From positions 1-64,000 of the forward strand of contig JAHDPL010000017.1 in the NCBI GenBank assembly GCA_018434355.1: DNA of 64,000 nt. Direction: 5' to 3'. Of the stretch, positions 53,412-57,769 are shown piece by piece. Numbering within the stretch: the first letter of the stretch is position 1; each line of letters starts with the position of its first letter. The notes beneath the pieces are model-generated. The model worked only from the letters and a program-made list of their open reading frames with translations, was not told where the DNA came from and searched no databases. The translations under genes and the position numbers were made by a program. Source of the DNA: Sporomusaceae bacterium. Lineage in GTDB: Bacteria; Bacillota; Negativicutes; UBA1444.

Positions 53412-53909
53412 TTATTTCGGCTCCCTGCTGCGGACGATTTCCACCAGCGAGGCTACGTCGTCGGGACCAAATCGGCCTAATGCCAGTGAACTGTAAACGG
53501 AATTGAACACCGTTCCGCCGGGTTTCAACAGAAATCCTGCGGCGTGCAGGTACAATCCTTTTGCTTCATAAAACACGCCGGTCCGGGCCGAGAAGGTTTT
53601 GGCGTCAATGCCATAACCGACCGGAAAAGTCAGCTTCAGGCCTTTTACTGTTTCCTCGGCTTTTTCCAAGGGGTCGACCGACAGCGCCACGACTTGGATC
53701 TCCAGCTTTTTCAACAGTTCGGTTTGAACTTGAAAATCCAGCAACTGCTGGCGGCAATACCTTCACCAGTCGCCCCGGTAAATGATGATTGCCGTCCACT
53801 TTGCTGCCAGATCAGCAGGCATTTTCAGCAACTGTCCTCCCACTGTCGGAACTTCGATCGCGGGAAAAATGTCTCCGGCATCCAATAATACTGATTGCTC
53901 ACGCGCCAT
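53412..53909 (-). CDS. Peroxiredoxin-like AhpC/TSA-family selenoprotein (in-frame UGA)
   Basis: Read through one TGA (53763-53765), this is a single 165-residue thioredoxin-fold protein. The residue coded by TGA is 49, in IIYRGDW-U-RYC, exactly where relatives have YRGDWCPYC. The frame is uninterrupted on both sides, and the second part continues the family pattern (QQLLDFQVQTELL, then VVALSVDP, FPVGYGID). A hairpin 11 bases after the TGA fits a bacterial SECIS. ATG at 53907-53909 has AGAGGAG eight bases upstream. It likely reduces peroxides or disulfides with a U-x-x-C site. A naive annotation would split it into two pieces. Confidence 0.78.
53738..53751 (-). promoter_or_regulatory. Candidate bacterial SECIS hairpin
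   Basis: On the minus-strand mRNA, CCAGC-AGUU-GCUGG begins 11 bases after the UGA, so the loop lies 16 bases from it, with a G as the second loop base. This fits the reported bSECIS rule (loop 16-37 bases from UGA, G among the first two loop bases), recalled and not checked by folding. Confidence 0.6.
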
Positions 53910-54026
53910 TACCGTCACTCCTCTTTCTTTGCAAATTCCGTATGGGACGATGTTTGTGGTTTGATTGTATTGTAGGGTAAATTGCTGGTCAAAACAAGAA
54001 GTGGAAAATAATAGGAGGGAATATTG

Positions 54027-54989
54027 ATGGAGGCGTTTTCCGAGGTTCTCCAGGCTGCCGGTAAATCGCTGGTGAGGGGGGAGCTTCGCTGTCTGCAGGT
54101 CAATGTCGGCTACCGTTGCAATTTGCAATGCAGTCACTGCCATGTCGAGGCTGGACCGAAACGCAGCGAGGCGATGAGCCGGACGGTGCTGGAGGACGTG
54201 CTTGCCTTTGCCGAAAAATCGGCGGTAGCCGAAATCGACATTACGGGCGGTGCACCGGAACTGTGGCCGCTATTGCCGGAATTCCTCGAACGCAGCCGGC
54301 GGCTGGCCTCGCTGGAAAGACTGCTTGTGCGGACCAATCTGGCGATTCTTGCCGAAGACGGATTCGCAGAGTTCCCCCGCTTGTTTGCTGAAAACCGGGT
54401 CGAGCTGGTTGCTTCGATGCCCTGTTATCTGGAAGAAAACGTTGATGCGCAGCGCGGGCGCGGCACTCACTGCCGCAATATCGGTGTGTTGCAGGCGCTC
54501 AACCAGGTCGGCTACGGCACCGGCGAGTACAAGCTGCATCTGGTCTACAATCCCGGCGGCAACTATCTGCCGGGGCCGCAGGCCGAACTGGAAGCCGATT
54601 ACAAGCAGCATTTGCGCGAGACTTATGGCATCGGCTTTGATTCGCTGTTCACCATCACCAACATGCCGATCGGTCGTTTTCGCCGGCAGTTGGCGAAGCA
54701 GGGATTGCTGGCGGGTTATCTGGAACTGCTGCAAACCAGCAGCAATCTGCAAAATCTCGAGCAGGTGATGTGCCGGAGCACGCTTAGCGTTAACTGGCAG
54801 GGGCGGGTATTTGACTGTGACTTCAACCAGATGCTGAAGATGGCTGGCGGACTGGGGCCGGCTTATATCGGCGACATCAGTCCGCAGGCATTGGCAGGGC
54901 AACCGATTGCCGTCGGCGATCACTGCTTTGCCTGTGTGGCCGGTGCTGGCAGCAGCTGTCAGGGCAGTCTGGCCGCATCCGGCGATTAA
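54027..54989 (+). CDS. ArsS-type radical SAM/Cys-rich protein
   Basis: A 320-residue radical SAM enzyme: CNLQCSHC near 29-36 binds the [4Fe-4S] cluster, and the Cys-rich tail HCFACVAGAGSSCQGSL matches the ArsS/rSAM_SeCys family (in some members a Cys of this tail is selenocysteine; here it is TGT). ArsS acts in arsenosugar-type synthesis. AGGAGGG seven bases upstream sets the ATG at 54027. It diverges from the selenoprotein gene and leads a unit with a disulfide oxidoreductase, followed by a converging glycosyltransferase of the same pathway group. Confidence 0.88.
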   Translation: MEAFSEVLQAAGKSLVRGELRCLQVNVGYRCNLQCSHCHVEAGPKRSEAMSRTVLEDVLAFAEKSAVAEIDITGGAPELWPLLPEFLERSRRLASLERLLVRTNLAILAEDGFAEFPRLFAENRVELVASMPCYLEENVDAQRGRGTHCRNIGVLQALNQVGYGTGEYKLHLVYNPGGNYLPGPQAELEADYKQHLRETYGIGFDSLFTITNMPIGRFRRQLAKQGLLAGYLELLQTSSNLQNLEQVMCRSTLSVNWQGRVFDCDFNQMLKMAGGLGPAYIGDISPQALAGQPIAVGDHCFACVAGAGSSCQGSLAASGD

Positions 54990-56446: not shown

Positions 56447-57769
56447 TCATTTGCCCATTCGGTAGTAGCCGGCCTTGATGGTTTCTGGTGAGACACCGAG
56501 CCGGTAAGCGGCATAGGCCCACATCGTGCGATACATCGCCTGCAGTTTGGTCTCGTTTGCATATTTGCGGGCGCTGGTCTCGACCACTTCGGGCAGGATC
56601 GCGATCTTGCCGGCACGGCGCATGCTGGTCGACAGCGCGGCATCTTCCATGATCGCGGTTTCGGGGAAGCCGCCAAGCTGCCAGAACCGGTCGGAGCCCA
56701 GGAACATGCCGCGATCACCGAAAATCATCCGGGTCATCCGGCAGAACAGGTTTGCGCCAAAGGCCAGAAACCGGTAAAACGGTTCCGGCGGGAAGAATCC
56801 CAAATCGAAGCCGCCGCCGATCAGGTGAGGGTCTTGCATGGCCGACAGCATCGCCGCCATGCCGCCGGCCGGCATGCGACTGTCGGCATGGAAAAACAGC
56901 AGGATTTTGCCGCGGGCGACCGCAGCGCCGGCGTTTAACTGACGACCACGGTTGGCAACCGGGCAGCGCAGCGTCCGCACGCCGGCCTGTCTGGCGATTT
57001 GCAGCGTATTGTCCTTGCTGCCGCCATCGACGACGATCCGTTCACAGCAGGGATGCTCCAGACTGCGCAGGCAGTCGGCCAGATACAGTTCTTCATTCAA
57101 TGTCGGCACAATGATGGAAACGGCGATGTCTGTTGCTGCACTTGCCGCCTGGTAGTCGAGCCAGTCCTCGTAGGTGTCGATGTCTCGTTTCGGTGGCAAT
57201 GAAAACAGCGGCAAGGATTGCTGCCGGCAGAGGTCCTGCACCAATGCCAGCACTTGCGGCGTTGACCAGGGAATCTCCGCCTGGAGTACCCTGGCGGCCT
57301 GTTGCTGAAACTGCCGGTTGGCGCCGAACAGATAAAAGCCGCCGTCAATGCTTGGTCCGACTACCGCCGGTTCCGTATCCAGCCGTGAAAAAGCGGCGGC
57401 TATTTCAGCTTCGTCCAGTTCCGGAATATCGGAGCCGATGACCATCACTTGCGCTGACCCCTGTCGGAAGCCTTCACTTAGGGCGTTTGCCATCCGTTCG
57501 CCGATGTTTTCTCCCAGCTGGCGGATATAGGGGAGATTGCGCGTTTCAAACCAGGCGGCATCGGAATCCGGCGTCAGGGCGACAAGGCGTTGCCAGCGAC
57601 CATCTCCGCCGCTGGCGGCCAGAATCGTCTCCAACATGGTTTGATAAATCTGCGCAGCCTGTTCGAGGCCGACCTGCGCGCCGATGCGGGTCTTTACCTG
57701 ACCGGCGGTCGGGGTTTTGGCAAACAGGATCAGCAGACGTTCCGCCGGAATAGGCGTTGAGTTGGTCAT
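56447..57769 (-). CDS. Fused glycosyltransferase: TIGR04282-like (DUF2064) + TIGR04283-like (GT2)
   Basis: A 440-residue two-domain protein. Residues 1-205 are a nucleotidyl-/glycosyl-transferase-like DUF2064 domain (LLILFAKTPTAGQVKTRIG; IGSDIPELDEAEI). Residues about 215-440 are a family 2 glycosyltransferase (VSIIVPTLNEELYLADCL; IVVDGGSKDNT; FFHADSRMP). These domains are often separate neighbours of ArsS-type radical SAM genes; here they form one chain. The ATG lies at 57767-57769 with GGAGGA upstream. It converges with the oxidoreductase gene. Confidence 0.88.
   Translation of the reverse strand: MTNSTPIPAERLLILFAKTPTAGQVKTRIGAQVGLEQAAQIYQTMLETILAASGGDGRWQRLVALTPDSDAAWFETRNLPYIRQLGENIGERMANALSEGFRQGSAQVMVIGSDIPELDEAEIAAAFSRLDTEPAVVGPSIDGGFYLFGANRQFQQQAARVLQAEIPWSTPQVLALVQDLCRQQSLPLFSLPPKRDIDTYEDWLDYQAASAATDIAVSIIVPTLNEELYLADCLRSLEHPCCERIVVDGGSKDNTLQIARQAGVRTLRCPVANRGRQLNAGAAVARGKILLFFHADSRMPAGGMAAMLSAMQDPHLIGGGFDLGFFPPEPFYRFLAFGANLFCRMTRMIFGDRGMFLGSDRFWQLGGFPETAIMEDAALSTSMRRAGKIAILPEVVETSARKYANETKLQAMYRTMWAYAAYRLGVSPETIKAGYYRMGK

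Follow-up and report, generated by a model that had tools for sequence, protein, structure and literature searches.

Does the single TGA (53763–53765, minus strand) within an otherwise open reading frame of a Sporomusaceae bacterium terminate a gene, or is it decoded as selenocysteine (Sec)? The frame lies in the window, i.e. the whole stretch of 64,000 nucleotides analysed here, and occupies positions 53909–53412 of the minus strand. It comprises 165 codons from ATG to TAA, with 48 open codons upstream of the TGA and 116 downstream. The initial annotation proposed one frame open on both sides of the TGA, the motif YRGDW-U-RYC and a good ribosome site. Coordinates and motif are confirmed by the sequence, and the ribosome binding site AGAGGAG (53918–53924) is found 8 nt upstream of the ATG at 53909. 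Further upstream, a sigma-70-like promoter (TTGACC-17-TACAAT, 53964–53992, minus strand) agrees with 10 of 12 consensus positions and is a weak candidate, identified by consensus match only. One point against the selenoprotein reading is the codon-usage score of its first 48 codons, 0.48 versus 0.63–0.73 in neighbouring genes. As argued below, the restored gene, which standard annotation would split or label a pseudogene, very probably encodes a 165-residue peroxiredoxin-like selenoprotein in which UGA codon 49 is predicted to be read as Sec.

Several lines of evidence treat the frame as one protein across the UGA. In a Pfam search with TGA translated as U, an AhpC-TSA domain (PF00578) is matched with 58.1 bits (cut-off 26) over residues 12–121 and thus spans the TGA. 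Downstream of it, 24 of the 28 near-invariant positions (at least 93% conserved among 80 relatives) are retained. Comparison with a paralogue from the same genome gives nucleotide identities of 52/71/38% by codon position upstream of the TGA and 61/69/29% downstream. Third positions are the most diverged on both sides, the pattern of selection acting on a protein in both parts. The AlphaFold model, built from 45 sequences, is confident (pLDDT 93.6) and adopts a peroxiredoxin fold; its matches in the PDB are peroxiredoxins with a query TM-score of about 0.8. Since TGA is the ordinary stop of six of the ten genes neighbouring the window gene, the genetic code is not otherwise altered and a reassigned UGA is ruled out.

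Reading UGA as Sec requires a dedicated apparatus, the absence of which the initial annotation had named among the outcomes that would refute its proposal. The assembly of this genome (3.9 Mb in 55 contigs, listed as 100% complete) contains all four genes. Profile matches identify selA (457 bits), selB (355 bits) and selD (399 bits); the SelA and SelB genes adjoin, and SelD is located on contig C30. The selC product, a tRNA-Sec with the anticodon UCA, is encoded on the window's own contig (C43:96696), so contamination is an unlikely explanation of its pairing with the gene under study.

Three further genes of this genome carry an in-frame UGA at known Sec sites, and two of them encode peroxiredoxins. 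SelD itself (G000:C30:35506-36417) shows the UGA at its known place (MKLTDFTKRGG-U-AAK), followed by a SECIS-like hairpin of 7 bp. A search of the genome for AhpC-TSA genes yielded the other two: a PrxU gene (G000:C17:189384-189782) with the UGA in DFTFV-U-PTE and 373 bits to NF040737 (cut-off 270), and a Bcp/PrxQ-like gene (G000:C33:108466-108852) with the UGA in DNTPG-U-TDE. Judging from these in-frame UGAs, several proteins of the peroxiredoxin type seem to contain selenocysteine in this organism. Searches for other selenoproteins in the same genome gave only chance matches to the formate dehydrogenase pattern V-U-H-x-P and no match to GrdB, for which no control gave a match either.

The hairpin that the initial annotation placed 11 bases after the UGA is present. 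CCAGC-AGUU-GCUGG (53738–53751, minus strand) begins 11 nt past the UGA and has a 5-bp stem, a 4-nt loop at +17 to +20, a spacing of 16 nt and a folding energy of −8.1 kcal/mol. Bacterial SECIS elements are described by a loop of 3–9 nt, a stem of 4–16 bp, a G at loop position 1 or 2, a spacing of 16–37 nt and a minimum free energy of at most −7.5 (PMC13188914 Fig. 2), and the hairpin lies within all four of these published constraints. Its placement is shared with the other UGA genes of the genome. The hairpins of SelD (AUAGGGC-CGGGC-GCCCUAU) and of the Bcp type (CCCGCG-AGUUU-CGCGGG) have their loops at +17, that of PrxU (GGCAGC-GGUC-GCUGCC) at +18, so that a register of +17 or +18 is common to all four, a criterion chosen after the genes had been seen. 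The loops of the window gene (AGUU) and the Bcp type (AGUUU) are almost identical. No such hairpin occurs in the Cys paralogue or in a Cys AhpC (L156) of the same genome. Rfam SECIS_1 matched nowhere in this genome, nor in the control genomes.

How much weight can the hairpin bear? Among synonymous recodings of the gene, 18% yield a hairpin at the exact place and 46% one with a similar stem in a wider range, a high rate which arises because QQLL written with common codons is nearly palindromic. The background rate of comparable hairpins is 3.8% per codon across ten neighbouring genes, and 11 of the 80 Cys relatives (14%) have one at this place by chance. Given the synonymous-codon null, we dropped the hairpin as stand-alone proof; it is consistent with Sec insertion and is weak evidence by itself, not significant alone.

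The residue expected at the UGA position can be read from homologues. The paralogue, 46% identical, has FCRGDW-C-RQDRQQLLDY with TGC in place of the UGA codon; it thus retains Cys49 and carries Asp at position 52, where the second Cys is missing. It is split between two contig ends (G000:C32:1-389 and G000:C52:33759-34155), and the contigs stop inside the element at the break. This element is insertion-sequence-like, flanked by a duplicated 8-base target (AGGTCTAT) and with ends resembling inverted repeats; its short transposase-like ends received no Pfam identification. The paralogue is therefore apparently disrupted by an insertion sequence, with C32 and C52 putatively joined across it. Relatives sharing 36–48% of residues along their whole length come from Actinomycetota, Ktedonobacteria, rhizobia and Deinococcus. 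The initial annotation left open whether Cys or Sec stands at the UGA position in homologues. Cys is found there in the paralogue and in all relatives fetched: CxxC is present in 80 of 80, by a scan (alignment A1) whose pattern required Cys and whose reach therefore covered Cys forms only.

Other searches for relatives returned little. A first contig scan with the single window protein as query found no relative, and no close orthologue was seen in the class (380 genomes) or in an evenly drawn sample of the phylum (398). Together with the Cys-requiring scan, these searches brought up no second Sec orthologue. The pattern RGDW-UGA-xYC gave six matches in IMG/VR, all of them chance matches full of stops. 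A relative on a plasmid of Deinococcus sp. QL22 (L055:3968-4460) has Arg for the first Cys (YRGDWRPFC) and is split in two frames; it is probably a decaying copy.

Could the locus be explained without selenocysteine? The TGA may be the result of a recent nonsense mutation at the first active-site Cys codon, or of faulty assembly, in which case the gene would be a newly formed pseudogene. Such an event would suit the representation of the UGA form by just one sequence, the single base which separates TGA from TGC and TGT, and the disruption of the paralogue in the same genome by the apparent insertion sequence. However, it would have had to strike precisely codon 49, which is hit by only one of 71 single-base routes to a stop and by one of the 15 routes to TGA, counts that assume a Cys codon at this position. 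It would also have had to do so in a genome equipped with all the Sec genes and with three further selenoproteins encoded through UGA, of which two are likewise peroxiredoxins, and in front of a hairpin placed as in those genes, while the invariant residues downstream were retained. We consider this explanation highly improbable. The UGA could also be a real stop, so that a short product of 48 residues is made, perhaps alongside a second one started at a TTG (53744) further downstream. Both portions are indeed open frames; yet the 48-residue stub would stop short of the active site, the TTG has no ribosome site upstream and the homology forms one continuous domain, and we give this explanation next to no credence. 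The reading of UGA as Sec within one protein is thus retained in what follows.

Where does the predicted Sec sit within the active site? In peroxiredoxins, the TxxC motif holds a Thr and the peroxidatic Cys, both with established roles. Alignment with solved structures in the PDB places residue 49 at this Thr and Cys52 (53754–53756, minus strand) at the peroxidatic Cys. The initial annotation had put the UGA at the expected redox residue; this holds insofar as it replaces an active-site Cys of the CxxC motif, but the residue replaced is the N-terminal Cys and not the peroxidatic one, which corresponds to Cys52. By its sequence, the window protein would thus be a UxxC Prx-like protein and not a TxxU Sec-peroxiredoxin. 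Sec49, with which the redox motif U-R-Y-C begins, is predicted to occupy the thioredoxin-type nucleophile position of CxxC, the reverse of the TxxU arrangement of PrxU. The paralogue, which keeps Cys49 and has Asp52, suggests that residue 49 is the one whose loss the family tolerates least.

Within the selenoprotein reading, the roles could be inverted: the protein would be a true peroxiredoxin with Cys52 as the peroxidatic residue and Sec49 as its resolving partner. The alignment of both residues speaks for this assignment, as do the peroxiredoxins retrieved by the fold comparison. On the other hand, the protein lacks the Thr found in peroxiredoxin active sites, CxxC is invariant in the family, and the combination of Cys49 and Asp52 in the paralogue points to position 49 as essential. 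We therefore judge this assignment unlikely, and favour Sec49 as the nucleophile.

With Sec49 in this role, a sequence of events can be proposed. SelB with Sec-tRNA(Sec) would decode UGA codon 49 as selenocysteine, guided by the hairpin just downstream. Sec49 would lie at the N-terminal end of the active-site helix, with Cys52 three residues further; in the model, residue 49 immediately precedes helix 50–61. The Sec49 selenolate may then attack a disulfide or a peroxide, after which Cys52 would resolve the intermediate, forming a selenenyl-sulfide that a thioredoxin-like donor would reset. A thioredoxin-type cycle is the likely chemistry. The best reading is a predicted UxxC thiol:disulfide oxidoreductase or peroxidase with a selenenyl-sulfide intermediate.

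The relationship between the Sec and Cys copies bears on their history. In the tree, the window protein and the paralogue are sisters (100/95) and group with the Ktedonobacter and Deinococcus forms (98/95). The simplest history that we infer is that the gene arrived by transfer and was duplicated, after which Cys gave way to Sec in one of the copies; alternatively, the ancestor may have had Sec and the paralogue acquired Cys. Of the two directions, the former was the commoner in a published survey, with 33 Cys-to-Sec versus 15 Sec-to-Cys events (PMC1794560). As a tentative proposal, which we hold at somewhat less than even confidence, the gene would be the product of a switch from Cys to Sec particular to this lineage. 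It may even be the first Sec member of its Prx-like subfamily, in which the analysis otherwise met Cys proteins only (Actinomycetota, Ktedonobacteria, rhizobia). The recipient would already have been a Sec-using bacterium, and the Cys copy would subsequently have been lost to the insertion sequence. A single genome with Sec (UxxC) and Cys paralogues, together with three further UGA genes sharing the hairpin register, is open to comparison and offers a compact test case for Cys-to-Sec conversion in thiol redox proteins.

The genomic neighbourhood had also been brought forward as an argument, in that the gene diverges from an ArsS gene whose family includes selenoproteins. The adjacency is correct: arsS, a radical SAM gene, lies at 54027–54989 on the plus strand, its product scores 387 bits to TIGR04167 (cut-off 300), and the family has Sec members with GxxU (PMC13188914). 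However, the window copy ends in GSSCQG and has Cys (GSSC) at the family's Sec site; it lends no support to the Sec reading and was dropped as an argument. Downstream of arsS, we find a MerA/dihydrolipoyl-dehydrogenase-like flavoprotein and, at 56447–57769 on the minus strand, arsenosugar-type glycosyltransferase domains (TIGR04282/TIGR04283) fused in one protein. The three genes likely form an arsenosugar cluster. On its other flank, the window gene is convergent with a glycine-betaine-type ABC transporter.

How does the protein compare with known families? PrxU (NF040737) has the same fold, is encoded in the same genome and shows an active-site UGA with the same hairpin register. In contrast, its Sec is at the peroxidatic position (TFVU), whereas the window protein has UxxC and reaches only 21.2 bits against the PrxU cut-off of 270, which together rule out an identity with PrxU or a TxxU Sec-peroxiredoxin. 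The SelL-related redox proteins (NF040769) share the peroxiredoxin-like fold, but the window protein, at 19 bits, stays far below their cut-off (120). The 'peroxiredoxin family proteins' of Mycobacterium, Ktedonobacter and Deinococcus (YRGSWCPYC) have the same invariant residues, with Cys instead of Sec. Finally, PMC13188914 (Table 1) lists among its high-confidence predictions a selenoprotein family named 'Prx-like thiol:disulfide oxidoreductase' (PF00578, UxxC); 225 sequences of Prx-like 1 were counted in the GOS survey (PMC2398784) and 22 in another report (PMC1088965), and WP_010940744.1 is an example of a published Sec member. Like the window protein, these proteins combine an AhpC-TSA domain, UxxC, many Cys relatives and a SECIS-like hairpin (PMC13188914, PMC2398784, PMC1088965), a likeness which rests on the listed domain and motif, the relatives fetched for the window protein being Cys proteins. 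UxxC Prx-like selenoproteins are thus already known, and by domain and motif the window gene is a new, strongly supported member.
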